From assembly GCA_029262315.1 (NCBI GenBank), contig JAJCZP010000153.1, forward strand, positions 1 to 50,907: DNA of 50,907 bases. Direction: 5' to 3'. How positions within the stretch are numbered: position 1 is the stretch's first letter; the number at the start of each line of letters is the position of its first letter. The notes under the pieces were generated by a model, which saw only the letters and a program-made list of their open reading frames with translations, was not told the origin of the DNA and ran no database searches. Positions 1-44,840 of this stretch are shown one piece after another. Source of the stretch: Deltaproteobacteria bacterium (GTDB lineage: Bacteria > Desulfobacterota > Binatia > UTPRO1). The translations under genes were made by a program, and so were the position numbers.

Positions 1-45
1 GGTCGGGTGGGGTGCGCCGCGGGGCCCGCCCCCCGGGCCCCCGCG

Positions 46-34617: not shown

Positions 34618-36009
34618 TCAGAACTGGAAGTAGATGAATGGCCGGCTGCCGCTCGCCCCAAGCATGGCAATCGCCAAGATACTGCCCGTAACCCAGAGAA
34701 TGCGCATCGGCCACCCGACGCGTTGCAGCAGATCGTCGTCGTAGTTCCACATGAACGACGCCAGATGGCCAAGAAAGAACACGGCAATGAATCCGAGCCA
34801 GGCGATGGGCAAACCCCCACCGGGCGCCCAGGTGAAGAGACGCGTCACCATGATGCGTACCTCCTCGAGCGTCTGGGCGCGAAAAAAACAGATCGAGGCA
34901 ATCCAGTAGACGTAGTTCGCCAGCCACCCGAGGAACCGCTTCCCGGTAAAGTCTGGCAGCGACCAGGTCTTGCGCCGCATGAAGATCATGTACCCCGTCA
35001 CCAACAAGCCGCTGTTGATCCCCCAGATAACGAAATGCCACGCAGCACCGTGCCAGAGGCCGATCAGCACCCACATGGTCATCATGCTGCACGCGAAGCG
35101 GAAGTCGCTCTGGTTCCAGCCACCGAGCGGGCGAAAGACATAGTCCGCGAACCACGAGCCCATCGTGCGGTGCCACGACAGGCGCTGCAGCAACGGGTTC
35201 CATTTCAACAAGGGATAGTCGAAATTCTTCGGCAGCTTGAAGCCGAAGAAATGCCCGATGCCCTGGGCCATCTCCGAGTAGCCCGAAAAGTCACAGTAGA
35301 TCTGAATGGCGAACGCCATCGCGCCCATCCAGATCGCCGCTCCACCAAAGGCCGCCGGATCGCCAAACACCTGATCCGCGATGATCGCGAAATTGTCGGC
35401 GACCACCACCTTCTTGAACAGCCCCGCCAAGAAGAGCTCGATGCCGCGCAGAATCTCGTCCTCGCGAATAGGCTCGGTACGCCGAAGCTGCGGCAGGAAC
35501 TGCGAGGCGCGCAGAATCGGCCCGGCGACCAACTGCGGAAAGAACGTGACGTACAACGCGAAATCGAGGAAGTTCTCGCTCGGCTTCGCGGCGTCCCGAT
35601 AGATGTCGATCGTGTAGGACATCGTCTGGAACGTGTAGAACGAAATCCCGAGTGGAATGACGACGTTGAGGTAGAACGGCTCGGGATCGATTCCCGACAC
35701 GAAGGCGACGTTGTCGAGGAAGAAGTTCCCGTACTTGAAGTAGAAGAGTACGCCGAGATTCCCGAGCAGGCTGACACCAAGGTACGCACGCCGCGCGGCG
35801 AGATTGGTGGTCTTCGCCATGCGCCCGCCGCAGACGAAATCGAGTCCGGTCGAGAACCACAGCAGCAGAACGAAGGGCGGGTTCCAGCTGGCGTAGAAGA
35901 CGTAACTCGCGAACAGCAGGAAGGCGTGCCGCGCGCGCCCGCGGAGCAGCGTCCACAGGAGCAACACGATCGGCAGAAAGATCGCGAACTCCAGACTATT
36001 GAACCGCAT
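34618..36009 (-). CDS. MBOAT-family membrane O-acyltransferase (AlgI-like)
   Basis: This multispan acyltransferase transfers acetyl or another acyl group to an exported polysaccharide. The 463 residues carry the AlgI/PatA-type landmarks: FNSLEFAIFLPIVLLLW, GISFYTFQTMSYTIDIYR, FPQLVAGPILRASQFLPQL, SWHRTMGSWFADYVFRPLGG and the catalytic histidine in IGLWHGAAWHFVIWG. About ten membrane segments are visible. It lies just downstream of an SGNH-type gene, a common pairing in which MBOAT passes the acyl group to a periplasmic transferase. The polysaccharide is not identified. Confidence 0.9.
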   Translation of the reverse strand: MRFNSLEFAIFLPIVLLLWTLLRGRARHAFLLFASYVFYASWNPPFVLLLWFSTGLDFVCGGRMAKTTNLAARRAYLGVSLLGNLGVLFYFKYGNFFLDNVAFVSGIDPEPFYLNVVIPLGISFYTFQTMSYTIDIYRDAAKPSENFLDFALYVTFFPQLVAGPILRASQFLPQLRRTEPIREDEILRGIELFLAGLFKKVVVADNFAIIADQVFGDPAAFGGAAIWMGAMAFAIQIYCDFSGYSEMAQGIGHFFGFKLPKNFDYPLLKWNPLLQRLSWHRTMGSWFADYVFRPLGGWNQSDFRFACSMMTMWVLIGLWHGAAWHFVIWGINSGLLVTGYMIFMRRKTWSLPDFTGKRFLGWLANYVYWIASICFFRAQTLEEVRIMVTRLFTWAPGGGLPIAWLGFIAVFFLGHLASFMWNYDDDLLQRVGWPMRILWVTGSILAIAMLGASGSRPFIYFQF

Positions 36010-36044: not shown

Positions 36045-36965
36045 CTAGAGCACGTCGCGCAAACGCGTCGCTACCACCTGCGTCACGAGCGCACTGCCGA
36101 CTGCGTTCATGTGCGACTGATCCCCGAAGTGCTCGACCTTCAGCTCAGGCAAGTCTTCGTTGGTAATGAAGACAAGGCCCTCCTCACGCACGATCGTCTC
36201 CAGGTACTCGCGAAACGGTGCCGTACGCGTGGCTGGCACCAGCAGCTTCATGAGCGGGTGGACCGGCGACTCCATCAGGACCAGCACGCCGCCATTCTCG
36301 CGCATCCGGCGCGCCAGGTAGCGAATCGCCCGGGTGTTGGGATTCGGATAGACGACGGGGTCGCGCGAGCGCATCCAGCCGACGATTGGTCCGAAGTCGC
36401 CATGGCGCATCGCCCGCAAGCGCCCCCGCATGTAGCCCCGGCGGAGTTCGGCCCAGTCGGTCGTTTCGAGATAGACCCGGAGCGACTGCTGCAGCACCCA
36501 GCGATGGCGGATCAGCACGTGGGATTGCGCCGCCAGCCCCATGAGATGGAAGCTCGGCTCGGCCAGCACCTCGTCCAGAGTGAACATCGAGGGTGCGGCC
36601 CGGACATCGTACACATTGACCCCGGCGTAGTTGATCTGGTCGCGGGTGCCGTACGGGCTCACGACCAGGATTGCGGCTTTGGCGTCGATATCGAGGATCG
36701 CGTTCGCCAGGAAACCGAACGACACCGTGTTGGAGCCGCCAATCGTGATCGGAATGAAATGGCGCTCGGGAAACCGCCCTTCGAACACGAAGGGATCGAG
36801 CGAGGCCAGCGCCGTGCTGTCTCCCAGAATGACGACGTTCCCCGGATCGGGGTCGGTGGTCCGCAGGCGCGCCTCGACGCGATACGAGTCGAGTTGATTC
36901 GGCGGGAACTCCCGAACGACCCATTCCCAGTGAGGCCGATAGTGCACGAAGGCCCGATCCACCAC
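36045..36965 (-). CDS. SGNH-like periplasmic acyltransferase/esterase, N terminus unclear
   Basis: This is the probable periplasmic partner of the MBOAT gene. The GDST nucleophile motif is at residues 49-51 (VILGDSTALASLD, nucleophile S50) and the catalytic D282-x2-H285 is in FGDQSHMNAVG. The only standard start in frame is GTG 36965, yet the frame upstream encodes a clean hydrophobic anchor (RLRLLLLILGGPILLLGVV, 36966-37016). An ATG at 37038 would provide a normal start but is in another frame and meets a stop after seven codons. Either a non-AUG start is used or a one-base indel exists. Length from 36965 is 306 residues. Confidence 0.75.
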   Translation of the reverse strand: MVDRAFVHYRPHWEWVVREFPPNQLDSYRVEARLRTTDPDPGNVVILGDSTALASLDPFVFEGRFPERHFIPITIGGSNTVSFGFLANAILDIDAKAAILVVSPYGTRDQINYAGVNVYDVRAAPSMFTLDEVLAEPSFHLMGLAAQSHVLIRHRWVLQQSLRVYLETTDWAELRRGYMRGRLRAMRHGDFGPIVGWMRSRDPVVYPNPNTRAIRYLARRMRENGGVLVLMESPVHPLMKLLVPATRTAPFREYLETIVREEGLVFITNEDLPELKVEHFGDQSHMNAVGSALVTQVVATRLRDVL

Positions 36966-37040: not shown

Positions 37041-37616
37041 TTAGAATGGGGAGTTCAGAAGATTGAAGAAGCAGCTGCCGTTGCCGATGCCTCCCGGACC
37101 GGTAAAACAAGCCGGGGTGTCGAACGGAACGTCGGCGCAATCGCCGAGGCACGCGTCCTCCAACGCATCACAGCATTCCTGTGCGTGCACGCGATCCGCA
37201 TTGCGACAGTCGCTGATGAAATCCTGATCGTCGTCGACCGAGTCGCGACAGTCGTCGCGCTCGCCCTTGTCCTCCAACGTCGAGCAGGCCGTGCGCAGGA
37301 GCGACGACCATTGGGCCCCGCCCTTGCTGCCACAACTCCTGGACTGCTTCGCGATGTCGCGACAGGTGCTCCGGAATCGAGTGCAGATGTCTTCGCATTC
37401 GTCTTCATCGCCGCTGCCAACGAGCTCCCCGAGCGCGGCCTCGCCGTACAGGTCGACGGCGACCGAAGGAGGAAAGCAGCCCCCCGAAGACGCAGCCGTA
37501 CTGAAGGTCCCCTCGGCAAAAGGACCGAATGGGTCGCCCGCAAGCGATACACTGGCGAGGCCAGCGGTGACGACTGTGACGAACAGGGCGGAAGCGAGTA
37601 GATGACGGCTATTCAT
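37041..37616 (-). CDS. secreted 14-cysteine protein, copy A
   Basis: I do not recognise this 191-residue protein. A Sec signal peptide (LLASALFVTVVTAGLASVSLA) is followed by FSTAASSGGCFPP and a cysteine-rich domain with 14 cysteines. Their spacing, between the second and twelfth cysteine, is 3, 6, 9, 15, 11, 13, 10, 0, 6 and 3 residues. It ends CFTGPGG then CFFNLLNSPF. Even cysteine number and export suggest seven disulfides. The acidic, helix-rich composition (DKGERDDCRDSVDDDQDF) resembles a compact helical repeat. AGGAGG lies 8 bases before the ATG. The next gene upstream is paralogue B. Confidence 0.8.
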   Translation of the reverse strand: MNSRHLLASALFVTVVTAGLASVSLAGDPFGPFAEGTFSTAASSGGCFPPSVAVDLYGEAALGELVGSGDEDECEDICTRFRSTCRDIAKQSRSCGSKGGAQWSSLLRTACSTLEDKGERDDCRDSVDDDQDFISDCRNADRVHAQECCDALEDACLGDCADVPFDTPACFTGPGGIGNGSCFFNLLNSPF

Positions 37617-37665
37617 GAGGCGAACCTCCTGGTGACTGGTCTCGTGGCGTAGGGTCCGATTGGCT

Positions 37666-38262
37666 CTAGAAAGTGGAGTTAGCGAGGCTGAACCAGCAGC
37701 TGCCACCGGCGTAACCTCCGGGGCCCGTAAAACACGCCTGGTGATCCCAGGGAGCATAAGGCTCGTCGAGGCAGTCCTTCAGGCAAATCGTGCGGTGGTT
37801 CTCGCAGCAGCCTCCCGCGCGCTGACGATCCGCGTCGGTACAATCCTTGACGACGTCCTGTAAGAACTCCGTTTCGTCCTTGCAGCTATTGCGATCGCCC
37901 TTGTCCTCGAGAGTACCGCACACCGTCTTGGCCAACTGGGTGAACTTACCGCCGCCGCGGTTCTGACAAGTGCGAGAGATCTTGGCGATCTGGTCGCACG
38001 TGTCGACAAACTTGTCGCAGATCTTCGCGCACGCCTCTTCGCTGTCGTCCCCGCGGTGGAACGCCAACTCCGATCCGGCCTCGAGATACATGTCGACAGC
38101 TGCCGACGGAGGAAGACATCCACCCGACGATGCCGCCGTGGAGAACGTATCGGACACGACGTCTTCGGGACCGAACGGCGTGCCGGCCTCGGTAGGGACA
38201 GACGAGATCGTAAACGCGAGCGCGAATGCGCACATGGAAGCGAGCAGTAGACGGGAACGCAT
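37666..38262 (-). CDS. secreted 14-cysteine protein, copy B
   Basis: This paralogue of copy A has 198 residues. The signal peptide is SRLLLASMCAFALAFTISSV and so on to TEAG. Then come FSTAASSGGCLPPSAAVDMY and 14 cysteines whose spacing from the second to the twelfth is identical to copy A. The end is CFTGPGG and CWFSLANSTF. The ribosome-binding leader (CCAGGAGGTCCGCCTC then ATG) is nearly identical to that of copy A, which points to a recent tandem duplication. The function is unknown. It is likely extracytoplasmic and disulfide-stabilised. Confidence 0.8.
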   Translation of the reverse strand: MRSRLLLASMCAFALAFTISSVPTEAGTPFGPEDVVSDTFSTAASSGGCLPPSAAVDMYLEAGSELAFHRGDDSEEACAKICDKFVDTCDQIAKISRTCQNRGGGKFTQLAKTVCGTLEDKGDRNSCKDETEFLQDVVKDCTDADRQRAGGCCENHRTICLKDCLDEPYAPWDHQACFTGPGGYAGGSCWFSLANSTF

Positions 38263-38334
38263 GAGGCGGACCTCCTGGTTGAAGTGCTGTCTAGTTCCGA
38301 CGACTGGGAAGACGCGATCGTTTACCATCGCAGT

Positions 38335-38358
38335 CCCTTGTTCTGCAAGGGTTTTCTT
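38335..38358 (+). terminator. orphan terminator-like hairpin, upstream of copy B
   Basis: CCCTTG pairs with CAAGGG around a 5-base loop and is followed on the plus strand by TTTTCTT. No plus-strand gene precedes it, so it may end an unseen small transcript, act as a leader structure for copy B on the other strand, or be chance. Confidence 0.3.
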
Positions 38359-38517
38359 GCCGGTCAGCCCCTTCCGATGGTGATACCGAGGGGCCGGGAA
38401 GCGATCCGCTTCGCACCGCGCCGGCAACGTAAGTAGCTGAAATTAGGCCCGATGCACGCTCATCATGGTTCAAGATCGCCAGTGGACTTCCCGGCTGATC
38501 GAGCCGATAAGTGTGGC

Positions 38518-39021
38518 ATGCGAACGCGCGCGAACCCAGGCTCGATGTTGTCGATCCTCGCCCTCGCCGGACTGCTGTGCGGCTGCGCCGACGGCGGCGA
38601 GTCGGGCGCGACAAGACTGGAGCGCCTCGAGGCCCGCCTCGACCGGTTGGACGAGCGCCTGACGCGGGCGGAAGGCCAACTCATCACGTCGGCCGCCGAT
38701 GTGGCCCAGCGGGAGGTTGCCGATGATGCGAATCCCGGCCTCGACCCCGAACGCCTCAGCTCAGTACTTCAGGGCATGGATCCCGAACGCCGCGAGCGCC
38801 TGCGCAAGCAGTTCCGGCAGATGCGAGGCCGTTTGGACAAACTGCGCGAAGGTGCGGACCTGACCGCGAAGCCGGGGACACCGGAGTTTCGACGTGCCCT
38901 CGTGCTCGAGATGATGCGGCGCTCCGGTCCGGGGGCACGGCTGCTTCGCCAACCGGACACGCAGCCAGACCCCACCACCGAGGATGGAGAGGCTACCGCG
39001 AGCGACGCGCCGCGGGATTGA
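38518..39021 (+). CDS. small coiled-coil lipoprotein
   Basis: This 167-residue protein of unknown function has a lipoprotein signal (MLSILALAGLLCGC) with a lipobox LCGC. A coiled coil follows directly (RLERLEARLDRLDERLTRAE, leucines at heptad positions). A second helical region (MDPERRERLRKQFRQMRGRL) and an acidic/polar tail follow. It lies on the opposite strand within the 14-cysteine cluster, between copies B and C. It could be a periplasmic spacer or a partner, but I see no direct evidence. The start at ATG 38518 is the first that gives a proper signal peptide. Confidence 0.7.
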   Translation: MRTRANPGSMLSILALAGLLCGCADGGESGATRLERLEARLDRLDERLTRAEGQLITSAADVAQREVADDANPGLDPERLSSVLQGMDPERRERLRKQFRQMRGRLDKLREGADLTAKPGTPEFRRALVLEMMRRSGPGARLLRQPDTQPDPTTEDGEATASDAPRD

Positions 39022-39048
39022 CCTCCGACCGCGTCGCGGGAATGGGCG

Positions 39049-39600
39049 TCATTCCGGCGTGTTCATGAAGTCGAAGAGGCAGGTGCCGCGGGTGAAGCAC
39101 TGCTGGATGTCCACTTCGTGCTCTTGCGTGCACGACTCGAAACACGCCGGGTAGTTGTTGTCGCAGCAATCACGCGCAGCCAGCGAGTCCTCGATGATGC
39201 ACGATCGGAGGTCTGCTCTGAAGTCGTCGGCGCCGCGGCGACAACTGCGCCGGTCGTTCCGGTTGTCGATGGTGTTGCAGACATCCGTAATGAGCCCGGC
39301 GATGGCGCCGGCCGTTCCAGAGTTGCAGGTACGACTCATGCGGACGATGCGCCGGCACTTCCTGACGTGACTACGACAGAGAATATCGCAATCACGGTCG
39401 AGGTTCTGAGGACTTCCCTCGCTGAACGGGAAGCCCTGCGCCCAGAGATCGGCACCGAGGGTGGGCGGCAGGCAACCGCCGGAGGTCGACGAACTCGTGC
39501 TCGGGACCGGGCCCGCCTGCGCGCTCGGCCCGAGACCGGCAAAGATCGCCACGGCCACGACCAACGATGCTGCGATGATGGCGCGCATTTGCTTCGTCAT
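39049..39600 (-). CDS. secreted 14-cysteine protein, copy C
   Basis: This is a third, more diverged paralogue of 183 residues. The signal peptide is RAIIAASLVVAVAIFAGLG then PSAQA. It is followed by SSTSGGCLPPTLGADLW and 14 cysteines with the same spacing (3, 6, 9, 15, 11, 13, 10, 0, 6 and 3) as in A and B. The last two cysteines are closer (5 rather than 11 residues apart). The end CLFDFMNTPE matches the NSPF/NSTF ends. This copy is Arg-rich rather than acidic. AGGGGGA precedes the ATG. Sequence identity outside the cysteines is low, so the cysteine framework is what is conserved. Confidence 0.8.
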   Translation of the reverse strand: MTKQMRAIIAASLVVAVAIFAGLGPSAQAGPVPSTSSSTSGGCLPPTLGADLWAQGFPFSEGSPQNLDRDCDILCRSHVRKCRRIVRMSRTCNSGTAGAIAGLITDVCNTIDNRNDRRSCRRGADDFRADLRSCIIEDSLAARDCCDNNYPACFESCTQEHEVDIQQCFTRGTCLFDFMNTPE

Positions 39601-40957: not shown

Positions 40958-42307
40958 TCAGTCGACATAGCCGAGCACGCGCAAGCGCGCACGCTCGACC
41001 TCCGTCAGCGGACGCACGCGCGCCGGTGACCGTCCCGCCAACACCCCGCGCATCCGTCCCGCCAGATCCGCGCTTCGCGCGCGCTCGCGATCGGCGAGAT
41101 TGTCGTGCTCGCCCGGATCCGCCGCGAGATCGTAGAGCTCGTCGTCGGCGCTCTTCGACCGGATCAACTTGTACTGTCCCGCGCGAATGGCTTGGCGTTC
41201 GTTGAAGTGATCGGCCTCGCTCAGCACGAGCTCGGGCCACACCGCCGCGCCATCGGCCAACAGCGGTAGGAGCGCGTGGCCGTCGAGGCCGTCGGGCACG
41301 GGAACACGCGCGAGGGCCAGCATCGTGGGCATGATGTCGGCCAGGCTGACCATCGCGTCGACGACGCGGCCCGCCGGGATACCCGGACCACGCACGATCA
41401 GCGGCACGTGCAGGACCTCCTCGTAGAGCGTCCGCCCGTGCAAGAAACCCCCGTGCTCCCGAAACTCCTCACCGTGATCGGACGTGACGACGATCAGCGC
41501 GTCCTCCCAGATCCCACGCCGCACGAGTTCGTCGAAGAGCTCGCCGAGACGCGTGTCGAGCTGACGGATCTCCGCGTCGTACAGACGTTGGATTTGTTCG
41601 ACCTCGTGGGGCTGCATCGTACGCCCCTGACGGGTGGCGATCAGACTGTCCGTCTCACCCGGTTCCAGATCGGGCCCCGCACCGAACATCCTCGCGAAAC
41701 GCGGCTCGGGCGCGTAGTCACTGTGCACGTCGTAGTAGTGCAAGAGAAGGAAAAACGGGGCCTCCGGCGGGAGCCCGCCGAGCCATGCCAATGCGGCGGC
41801 GTTGATGTCGGCCGCACGATTGAGCACCCGCGGCCCAGAACGACCATCCTTCCTTTCCCACTCGATCTCATCGTAGTGCTCGAAGGTCGATTTGCACCGC
41901 TTGCACGGCAGCACCAGGTCACTCGCGACAACCGCCGCGGTCCGAAAGCCACGCGCCCCGAATTCTTCGGCAAGGGTCCGCACGCCGGCACGCAGCTCCC
42001 GACCCACCTCGAACACTCCGTGCCGGCTCGGGTAGAGCCCGGTAAGCATCGAGGTGTGCGAGGGCGGCGTCCAGGGCGAGCTGGCCGAACAGCGCGCAAA
42101 CAACACCCCGTCGGCGGCGAACGCGTCCAGGACCGGGGACGTCGGACGCGCGTAGCCGTACGCTCCCAGTCGGTCGGCGCGGAGGGTATCGATCGAAATT
42201 AAGATGATGCGGTTGACCGGGTGCGGCGGCTCGTCCCCAACCCCAGGCGTGCAAGCCGAGAGAAGCACCGCGCCGAGCAGTGCGCACCATGCCGATCGCC
42301 GCGTCAT
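40958..42307 (-). CDS. sulfatase-superfamily lipoprotein, Thr at the formylglycine site
   Basis: This is a member of the alkaline phosphatase/sulfatase superfamily, anchored by a lipobox (VLLSACTPG). Metal-site landmarks are ISIDTLRADRLGAYGY, VTSDHGEEFREHGGFLHG and the AGQYKLIRSK end. At the formylglycine position the usual C-x-P-S-R is T80-P-P-S-H84 (WTPPSHTSMLTG). Cys/Ser and Arg are both absent, so formylglycine maturation cannot occur. A threonine nucleophile is found in phosphotransferases such as LTA synthase, so a phosphoester or phosphotransferase activity is possible. Length is 449 residues, and it overlaps the upstream homologue by 4 bases (ATGA). Confidence 0.85.
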   Translation of the reverse strand: MTRRSAWCALLGAVLLSACTPGVGDEPPHPVNRIILISIDTLRADRLGAYGYARPTSPVLDAFAADGVLFARCSASSPWTPPSHTSMLTGLYPSRHGVFEVGRELRAGVRTLAEEFGARGFRTAAVVASDLVLPCKRCKSTFEHYDEIEWERKDGRSGPRVLNRAADINAAALAWLGGLPPEAPFFLLLHYYDVHSDYAPEPRFARMFGAGPDLEPGETDSLIATRQGRTMQPHEVEQIQRLYDAEIRQLDTRLGELFDELVRRGIWEDALIVVTSDHGEEFREHGGFLHGRTLYEEVLHVPLIVRGPGIPAGRVVDAMVSLADIMPTMLALARVPVPDGLDGHALLPLLADGAAVWPELVLSEADHFNERQAIRAGQYKLIRSKSADDELYDLAADPGEHDNLADRERARSADLAGRMRGVLAGRSPARVRPLTEVERARLRVLGYVD

Positions 42308-43812
42308 TCTTCGCCCACGTAGCCGAGGGCGCGAAAGCGCGCCCGATCGACTTCGGAGAGCGTGCGCTGCCGTGCCGGGCGGCGCGGCCCCAGACCTGCG
42401 CGGAGACCGGAGAGACGTTCGGCCAAACGACGCCGGACCTCAGGAAAACGCGCCGCGACGTCGGTCGCCTCGTCCTCGACGCGGTACAGGCGACCCGCGC
42501 GCTCGTCCGGTGTTGCGCCAACCACGTACTTGTAGTCGCCCTCGACGATACCATGACGCTCGACCGCTGCGCCGCCGAGGTTTGCCAGGTAGGCGACGCG
42601 CCCAGCCTCGGGTCCGGCGTCCGCGAACACATCGCGGCCGCTCCCGGCCCCCGCCGGGACATCGCCGAGCACGCCAAGGAGCGTCGGCAAGACATCGACG
42701 AGCGACACCACGTCATCGCGGCGCGACGGCCGCATTCCTGGAGCCACGACGACGAGTGGCACTCGCACCAGCGGCTCGGTCAGATACTCTCCGTGCGCGA
42801 ACCAGTAGTCGTGCTCACCGAGCCCCTCACCATGATCGGCGGCAAACACGATCACCGCGCGCTCACCGAGGCCACGGTCGCGCACCCCGGCCAGCAAGTG
42901 CCCGACGTGCTCGTCGAGGTAGCGCACCTCGGCATCGTAGCCGCTGCGATAGAACGCCACCTCCCGCTGACCGTCCACGACCTGGTACCCAGGCAAGCCA
43001 CCGATACCACGGTCGCCCAACGCGAGCGGCAGGAGGGTCGTACCACCCTCGACGCCACGCTCGCGCTCGAGGTAGCGCGCGCGCAGGGCCTCGGGCGGCG
43101 TATAGGGTCCATGCGGATCCTGGTAGTGCACCCAGAGGAAACAGGGTGCGCCCGCGCTCGCACAGCCATCGAGAGCCGCCAACGCGTCGGCCGTCGTCGC
43201 CTTCGCGATGCGCTCGGGCCGGCGTCGGACAGCTTCGAGTTGCGGACAGCGATCGTCGTACTGATCGAAGCCACGGTCGACGCCCGACGCGCGTCGGAGC
43301 ACGTAGTTGCTGACGACCGCCGATGTCCGCCACCCGGCTGCGCCGAGCCGACTGGCCAGCGTCGGCACACCGTCTGGCAACCCCGACTCGTTGGTCCAGA
43401 TCCCGAGCGCCTCCGGATAGCGACCCGTCATGAGCGCCGCAACGGACGGCACCGTGAAGGAAGCCGGCGCGTACGCGCGCCCGAACACCACGCCGTCAGC
43501 GGCCAAGGCGTCGATATGCGGCGTCAGCGCACGCTCACTTCCGTACGCGCCGAGGCGATCGGCGCGCAGCGTGTCCACCGTAATCAGTAACAGCAGATTC
43601 GGCCGCAACACGGGCTGCTCGCACCCCACGACCGCCAGCAATCCGACCAGCGCCGTCAGCAGCACCGTCCGGGCGTGCGAACGCGACGCCCCGCCGTCGG
43701 CCCACGCCGCACCTCGGCGTATGGACCGCGCGGGCCGGGAACGATCCGCACGGATGCCTCGCGCCAAGCCGTGACCGTCCGTGCCGCGCACGCGACACAC
43801 GCGCGTCACCAT
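42304..43812 (-). CDS. second sulfatase-superfamily lipoprotein
   Basis: This is a paralogue of the downstream gene. It starts at ATG 43812, overlapping the DUF2804 stop (GTG 43809 is an alternative), which gives 502 residues. A long, Arg-rich n-region precedes the signal LLTALVGLLAVVGCEQ with lipobox Cys64. Metal-site landmarks are ITVDTLRADRLGAYGS and FAADHGEGLGEHDYWFAHG. The formylglycine site reads T120-V-P-S-V124 (SFTVPSVAALMTG), again Thr with no Arg. The C-terminal tail L-(T/S)-E-V and LGYV is shared with the paralogue. The substrate is unknown. Confidence 0.82.
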   Translation of the reverse strand: MVTRVCRVRGTDGHGLARGIRADRSRPARSIRRGAAWADGGASRSHARTVLLTALVGLLAVVGCEQPVLRPNLLLLITVDTLRADRLGAYGSERALTPHIDALAADGVVFGRAYAPASFTVPSVAALMTGRYPEALGIWTNESGLPDGVPTLASRLGAAGWRTSAVVSNYVLRRASGVDRGFDQYDDRCPQLEAVRRRPERIAKATTADALAALDGCASAGAPCFLWVHYQDPHGPYTPPEALRARYLERERGVEGGTTLLPLALGDRGIGGLPGYQVVDGQREVAFYRSGYDAEVRYLDEHVGHLLAGVRDRGLGERAVIVFAADHGEGLGEHDYWFAHGEYLTEPLVRVPLVVVAPGMRPSRRDDVVSLVDVLPTLLGVLGDVPAGAGSGRDVFADAGPEAGRVAYLANLGGAAVERHGIVEGDYKYVVGATPDERAGRLYRVEDEATDVAARFPEVRRRLAERLSGLRAGLGPRRPARQRTLSEVDRARFRALGYVGEE

Positions 43813-44840
43813 TTCGCGTAGTGATCTTCGGTCAGCCCGTACACGTCGCGCACCGCGAGCGTGCGCCCCTGGTAGCGGATCGTCCCCTCGAAGCGGCCGA
43901 GGAAATGACGGAAGTTGGTCGCAAGTACCAGGGCGTTCGTGCGCTCCGCATGGCACTCTTCGGGATGGAACCGCAGGTCGATCGCACCGTCGAACGAACG
44001 GATACTCCAAGGCGCGGTGGGATCGTCACGATCGAAATCGAACCTCGCAAGATCGACCTTGCCGAGCGCGCCTTCCACCCAGCAGCAATTCTCCGTCACG
44101 CTGGTCTCGTTGACCCCACAGGAGAGGTTGAGGCCGATCCGCTCCCCCGTCTCCGCCCGCCCGGAGAAACACGCCCAGCGCCAAAACGTCTCGCGACGCA
44201 TGTACCCCGCCGAGTAGTCATGATGCGCATGGGCGTCGACCGCCGCCAGGTCGTACTCGCCGAAGTCGCAACGCACCTGCCCGGCGAGCGGCACGCCCGC
44301 CGCCTTCTGCGCGTACACCCAGCCACTGATCCCCGCCTGCGTGCACAGCGCCATCGGCTGAAACGCGGGCTGGTCCTCTGAAAACACCGCGTCGATGTCC
44401 AGGCCCGCGTCGACCCGCGCCACGAGACGCTTCGTGGCCGGTCGGTCCGTAGCCGTCATCTCGACCGATACCCCACGCGCCCGAAACGAGGTCGTACCGC
44501 TGACCGGCGACAAGCTCGACGTCACACCACGCGCCAACGGGACACGGAAACTGTAGCGGCGGATGCTCCGCGTCGCCGGCTGATACACGTAGAGGAATGC
44601 CAGCGCGACGAACCGCATGTCGGCGATCGCGCATCCGAACATCAGCTCGGAACTCATCCCGCCAAAATACTGGAACTGTCGAAAGCGAGCCCGCTTGCCG
44701 AGCATGCCCACCCGCCGCCCCATCGGCGACCGATAGTCGTAGTCGAGGTAGTTGATGCGCCGCACCGGCCCAGGAAAAATCCCGAACTGCGGCAAGCCGT
44801 TCGGCTTCACGAGCGCAGAAAGATCCATGGCTTCGCTCAT
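43806..44840 (-). CDS. DUF2804 domain-containing protein
   Basis: This 344-residue soluble-looking protein is of the DUF2804 family, whose function is not known. Conserved pieces are PNGLPQFGIFPGPVRRINYL, GVNETSVTENCCWVEG, the HHDYSAGYMRRETFWRWACF block and the end DVYGLTEDHYAKW. There is no signal peptide. It is the first gene of an operon with two sulfatase-superfamily proteins and a dipeptidase, and its stop overlaps the next start. The beta-rich composition fits a lipid- or sugar-binding fold (calycin-like), which is inference. Confidence 0.85.
   Translation of the reverse strand: MSEAMDLSALVKPNGLPQFGIFPGPVRRINYLDYDYRSPMGRRVGMLGKRARFRQFQYFGGMSSELMFGCAIADMRFVALAFLYVYQPATRSIRRYSFRVPLARGVTSSLSPVSGTTSFRARGVSVEMTATDRPATKRLVARVDAGLDIDAVFSEDQPAFQPMALCTQAGISGWVYAQKAAGVPLAGQVRCDFGEYDLAAVDAHAHHDYSAGYMRRETFWRWACFSGRAETGERIGLNLSCGVNETSVTENCCWVEGALGKVDLARFDFDRDDPTAPWSIRSFDGAIDLRFHPEECHAERTNALVLATNFRHFLGRFEGTIRYQGRTLAVRDVYGLTEDHYAKW

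Follow-up and report, generated by a model that had tools for sequence, protein, structure and literature searches.

Which constraint keeps the cysteines of three secreted proteins at identical distances while little else of their sequence is shared, and what could such proteins do outside the cytoplasm? The three genes that raise this question, here called A, B and C (Table 1), lie on the minus strand of the window, the whole stretch of 50,907 nucleotides that was analysed. We consider it probable (roughly 0.6) that they belong to an undescribed family of exported proteins with a predicted disulfide-stapled helical hairpin and, by our interpretation, act at the cell envelope as binding or structural elements and not as enzymes.

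Gene copies and their shared cysteines

According to a preliminary description, the products of all three genes have a signal peptide, an (S/T)SGGC(F/L)PP motif and exactly 14 mature cysteines; this and the coordinates given there we can confirm. The motif reads SSGGCFPP in A, SSGGCLPP in B and TSGGCLPP in C, and putative signal peptide cleavage sites, judged by eye, fall between SLA and GD in A, TEA and GT in B, and AQA and GP in C. The proteins of A and C have 14 cysteines in total; that of B has 15, one of which lies within the signal peptide and leaves 14 in the mature protein. From Cys 2 to Cys 12 the ten gaps measure 3, 6, 9, 15, 11, 13, 10, 0, 6 and 3 residues, the same in all three copies.

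The statement that copy C shares little else likewise holds. Between A and C all 14 cysteines are kept, as against 43 of 163 other aligned residues (26%; binomial p about 8e-9), and non-cysteine identity amounts to 25% between B and C and 46% between A and B. Overall identity is 50% for B versus A and about 31% for C versus either A or B. Four cysteines of the window copies lie beyond the core described below, two of them in helix 2 (C137 and C148 of A) and two in the C-terminal tail (C170 and C182 of A); the tail pair occurs in the window copies only among the members compared.

Within the cluster A and B form a close pair, in which B lies upstream of A at a distance of about 50 nucleotides, and in which AGGAGG stands just 5' of each ATG. 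C is set apart from B by a lipoprotein-like open reading frame on the plus strand (38452-39021, +). This frame is divergent from B and convergent with C, contains LLCGCADGG and a coiled-coil-like segment, and has no Pfam match. Promoter and terminator scans gave no signal above shuffles.

Neither A, B and C nor the cores of the wider family have a credible match above the curated cut-offs of Pfam and NCBIfam, and PADLOC and Rfam returned no match. Against PDB sequences the family profile found no significant match, the best being saposin A at E 0.18, and no description of the family was found in the open-access literature. By these sequence comparisons none of the libraries searched contains the family yet, in agreement with the initial failure to recognise a named family.

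Table 1. Positions of the three genes, their predicted parts and the adjacent gene pair in the window.
Feature	Position	Strand	Remarks
Gene A, exported 191-aa protein	37041..37616	-	14 mature Cys; AGGAGG at 37625-37630
A, signal peptide, residues 1-26	37539..37616	-	by sequence; cleavage site inferred
A, helical-hairpin core, C1 (res 47) to C10 (res 160)	37137..37478	-	predicted
A, C-terminal tail with extra Cys C170/C182 (CFTG...GSCF)	37044..37136	-	
Gene B, exported 198-aa protein	37666..38262	-	14 mature Cys; AGGAGG at 38271-38276
B, helical-hairpin core, C1 (res 49) to C10 (res 164)	37771..38118	-	predicted
Gene C, exported 183-aa protein	39049..39600	-	14 Cys
C, helical-hairpin core, C1 (res 43) to C10 (res 157)	39130..39474	-	predicted
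Putative SGNH/AlgJ-like partner gene, downstream of A	36045..36965	-	uncertain start, the frame being open to 37040; no Pfam match
MBOAT O-acyltransferase (AlgI-like), next in run	34618..36009	-	PF03062, E 1.4e-16

Ten-cysteine core of a sparse family

A profile built from A, B and C detected three more members in the same genome (L007, L008 and L009), and another genome from this class contributed two. When genome and viral contigs were searched for the cysteine framework as a DNA pattern, most hits were low-complexity poly-Cys reads; among the matches listed there was one true relative, L060, from 'Deltaproteobacteria bacterium isolate Ww264', which the tree labels Myxococcota. Whole-genome searches seeded with these relatives gave further members, although divergent ones may escape the first pass, and at least 37 members from eight genomes have been read. 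The family is sparse, with members in 3 of the 148 genomes searched from the class of the window and in 5 of the 91 from that of L060. Even samples of two phyla (395 and 379 genomes) yielded two borderline matches only, G020 (E 3.7e-5) and G662 (E 4.6e-6, with two internal stops), neither of which is counted here. No genome listed for one sample recurs in the other, so that the window and L060 probably come from different phyla. A peptide-pattern search of genome contigs from A, B and C found no match, nor did tblastn against plasmids (P0001) and phages (P0003).

Two candidates from genomes of the window's family, L269 and L270 (E 0.006-0.007), were also left uncounted: their C-x3-C elements come in another order. 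The gene at L269 (1429-2319, +) encodes an exported protein of 296 residues with two repeats of a different helical cysteine-rich pattern, possibly another stapled-helix family.

The fixed framework of 14 cysteines in the preliminary description stands for A, B and C, to which it is confined. Constant across the wider family is a core of ten cysteines, C1-(17..31)-C2-3-C3-6-C4-9-C5-15-C6-(8..13)-C7-25-C8-6-C9-3-C10, whose spacing is kept in the relatives from other genomes with rare shifts of one or two residues; nine members have C2 shifted upstream (gap 8-11). The number of mature cysteines is even in every member read. In a set of 34 members it is 10 in 25, 12 in five, 14 in three and 8 in one, and three members found later have 10 each. 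The protein with eight cysteines (L301 1684-2196, -), encoded beside the MBOAT gene of genome G538, lacks exactly C6 and C7 and is shorter in the C5-C8 stretch, the tip. Gain and loss of cysteines in pairs is what disulfides lead one to expect. No column other than the cysteines is invariant, and most have an entropy of 2-3.5 bits, which makes a catalytic site unlikely. The net charge of the core spans -16 to +7 across members, gene A being strongly acidic.

Tandem clusters are also present elsewhere, as a run of five genes in G538 (C173) and one of three in G545 (C247). In the tree A, B and C are grouped (support 90/91), while the other three members of their genome group with those of G545 (88/71); this split suggests that the two subtypes are either old or transferred. 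In L060 (72-1190, -), L271 and L272 the core sits behind an N-terminal Ig-like extracellular segment, the Ig match lying below the Pfam cut-off. The C termini of L277, L278 and L337 are extended in a similar way, by about 100-120 residues with a VGVNYEDLVP-like start.

Predicted hairpin and disulfide ladder

The spacing of the core is a palindrome, 3, 6, 25 (9+1+15), n, 25, 6, 3. In an antiparallel hairpin the positions of facing residues sum to a constant; the opposite course of the two helices would explain why the gaps are mirror images, and their role in setting the hairpin's register why they do not vary. The predicted rungs of A (74-160, 78-156, 85-149 and 111-123) each sum to 234. Among the 36 members with complete C3-C10, the sum C6+C7 is equalled within one residue by C3+C9 in 35, by C4+C8 in all 36 and by C2+C10 in 26, figures which, like the palindrome, are not independent of homology. 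The last number is lower because nine members form the subgroup with displaced C2 and one (L016) is off by 2.

An AlphaFold2 model of the L060 core (pLDDT 87.8, pTM 0.71), from an alignment that included the window sequences, to which L060 is about 20% identical, has helices at 10-19, 30-71 and 76-122. It forms a long antiparallel hairpin in which four predicted pairs each sum to 152. The model of full-length B is of lower confidence (pLDDT 52 overall, about 55-83 in the core); its helices resemble those of the L060 model, and its C-terminal tail is drawn as a low-confidence beta-hairpin. Computed independently of AlphaFold, hydrophobic residues fall on the same helix face as the cysteines. 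In helix 1 the non-cysteine hydrophobicity peaks at 100 degrees per residue, -16 degrees from the cysteines (p 6e-4); in helix 2 the offset is -14 degrees, the signal being weaker (p 0.016) and its strongest period not helical.

We interpret C2-C10, C3-C9, C4-C8 and C6-C7, which share one register, as a predicted disulfide ladder, and by elimination C1 is predicted to pair with C5. C137 and C148 of A lie in one helix and cannot bond each other. The core would then consist of a short N-terminal helix and a long antiparallel alpha-helical hairpin held by nested disulfides, four of them across the hairpin and the fifth, C1-C5, tying down the N-terminal arm. Such staples would fix a rod of two helices of 40-47 residues, so that almost every other residue could vary. 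The earlier proposal, an extracellular fold rich in disulfides and strongly constrained in structure, is supported and can now be given a specific form; homologues keep the core spacing around a variable tip loop, the pairing itself being predicted.

With the L060-core model Foldseek found generic three-helix bundles, none of them significant (best E 0.57 in PDB and 0.16 among the viral models of BFVD), and a fold search with the low-confidence B model gave generic helical matches only, with Z at most 7. The top VIA-align match, domain I of ribosome recycling factor, has Z 10.3 (rmsd 2.5 over 99 residues) and falls below the level of about 13 that separates helical bundles from chance; it shares the three-helix arrangement but is a cytosolic protein without a cysteine ladder. 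The defining feature of CHCH proteins is a pair of CX9C motifs on antiparallel helices; the family has a single CX9C in its core (C4-C5), and helix 2 lacks the partner.

The copper storage protein Csp1 is an exported helical bundle with many inward-facing cysteines, and the cysteines of Csp proteins bind Cu(I) as thiolates. A metal store of this kind, in which many cysteines line a helical bundle, seems very improbable for the present family: its members are also helical and exported, with many cysteines toward the interface, but their strictly even cysteine counts, the paired absence of C6 and C7 in one member and the precise cross-helix register fit disulfides instead of thiolates. No such Pfam match occurs in any member, and the DUF326 model matched none of those tested.

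The pairing of disulfides in saposins is nested, as is the pairing predicted here, and the saposin A alignment, the sole match of the family profile to PDB sequences, pairs C4, C6, C7 and C8 with four of the saposin's six cysteines, with almost the same gaps, the inner 25-n-25 coming close to that of saposin A. The nested disulfides and the hairpin might accordingly belong to an opening, lipid-binding or membrane-acting protein, a reading that we regard as unlikely. An E value of 0.18 is at chance level, and the SapB model has no match at E<=0.1 in 34 members. Saposin-like proteins have six cysteines and four helices, whereas the family core has ten cysteines and is modelled as an extended hairpin, in a straight three-helix arrangement, with no saposin among the fold matches listed for the L060 core. 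Proteins with saposin-like folds, moreover, need not bind lipid (PMC13041983).

A likeness in principle exists to the alpha-hairpinins, plant antimicrobial peptides of the pattern CX3C-X(4-20)-CX3C, which form an antiparallel helix-loop-helix with nested disulfides and in which the cysteines are often the sole conserved residues (PMC11591084). The A/B/C family resembles them in its outer CX3C...CX3C, and would do so in its hairpin with nested disulfides if the predictions from the register and from the model of a relative (pLDDT 88) are right. It differs in the distance between the two CX3C elements, which is 4-20 residues in alpha-hairpinins, about 80 in the family and 77 in A, where further cysteines stand in between; the core spacing that defines alpha-hairpinins is absent. 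Alpha-hairpinins are plant peptides with 4-6 cysteines, whereas the family is bacterial, with 8-14 cysteines and a core of 120 residues. No sequence relation between the two was found. The general principle, two antiparallel helices held together by nested disulfides, is already known from alpha-hairpinins.

Gene neighbourhood and possible roles

The gene order in the window is B-A-SGNH-MBOAT, the assignment of the gene at 36045..36965 as SGNH/AlgJ-like being inferred from its pairing with the MBOAT gene. In G538, a distant genome, the order on one strand is member-SGNH-MBOAT-member-member, the opposite strand carries a further two members, and the SGNH-like and MBOAT proteins are 34% and 54% identical to those of the window. 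Since each of these two genomes has one copy of the SGNH homologue, we estimate a chance adjacency of roughly 0.1-0.3% per genome. These arrangements are compatible with members acting as clients or partners of the pair, e.g., as acylated secreted proteins or as anchors of an O-acylated surface glycan. However, the homologue is found in two of the eight member-bearing genomes and missing from six, and in G537, which carries it twice, a family member was not found; the link is therefore suggestive and local, and we judge this reading to be rather improbable as an account of the family. We attach a similarly small probability to a broader form of it, in which the family would be a new bacterial superfamily of exported disulfide-ladder hairpins that in some genomes are acylated or glycan-anchoring clients or partners of MBOAT/SGNH.

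A neighbour common to all members was sought and none was found, nor is any common to most, the other surroundings being unrelated; the proposed envelope role consequently rests on the signal peptides, the fusions and the two MBOAT loci. Sulfatase genes lie near members in two genomes (window 40958-44010, -; L312 8687-10189, -). In the window's genome an exported protein of 756 residues with EGF-like and beta-propeller repeats (L293 5512-7782, -) is encoded beside L007, and an open reading frame with a tandem VTVGVA repeat (L007 60-425, +) is likewise found near that member.

The proteins could also be secreted antagonists of other cells, i.e., antimicrobial peptide-like proteins, inhibitors or effectors. 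They are exported, occur in tandem copies and have very variable surfaces with core charges from one extreme to the other, and alpha-hairpinins, with the same outer CX3C...CX3C, inhibit trypsin, ribosomes and fungi (PMC11591084). We nevertheless consider such a role unlikely as well, given that the family proteins are far longer than alpha-hairpinins, that gene A is strongly acidic, that no gene for immunity or dedicated secretion could be recognised next to the window copies, and that PADLOC gave no match.

We favour a stapled helical hairpin that acts as a rigid extracellular binding or envelope scaffold and not as an enzyme, as suggested by the good conservation of the cysteines only. As stable modules beyond the cytoplasm, the proteins would serve in binding or in structure at the cell envelope or around it, and tandem multiplication would have led to diversified surfaces. 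Of the functions listed in the preliminary description, the data favour a binding domain or surface component over a toxin-like effector or inhibitor, without deciding between them.

If this interpretation is correct, a nameless cysteine pattern gains a physical reason, its mirror-image gaps being the rungs of an antiparallel helical hairpin. The constant-sum rule makes relatives findable by pattern at identities below 20%, and both pairing and structure can be tested directly. A bacterial scaffold that is rigid, can be exported and accepts substitutions at almost all remaining positions would be of interest for the design of binding scaffolds and also for studies of the exoproteome of uncultured bacteria.
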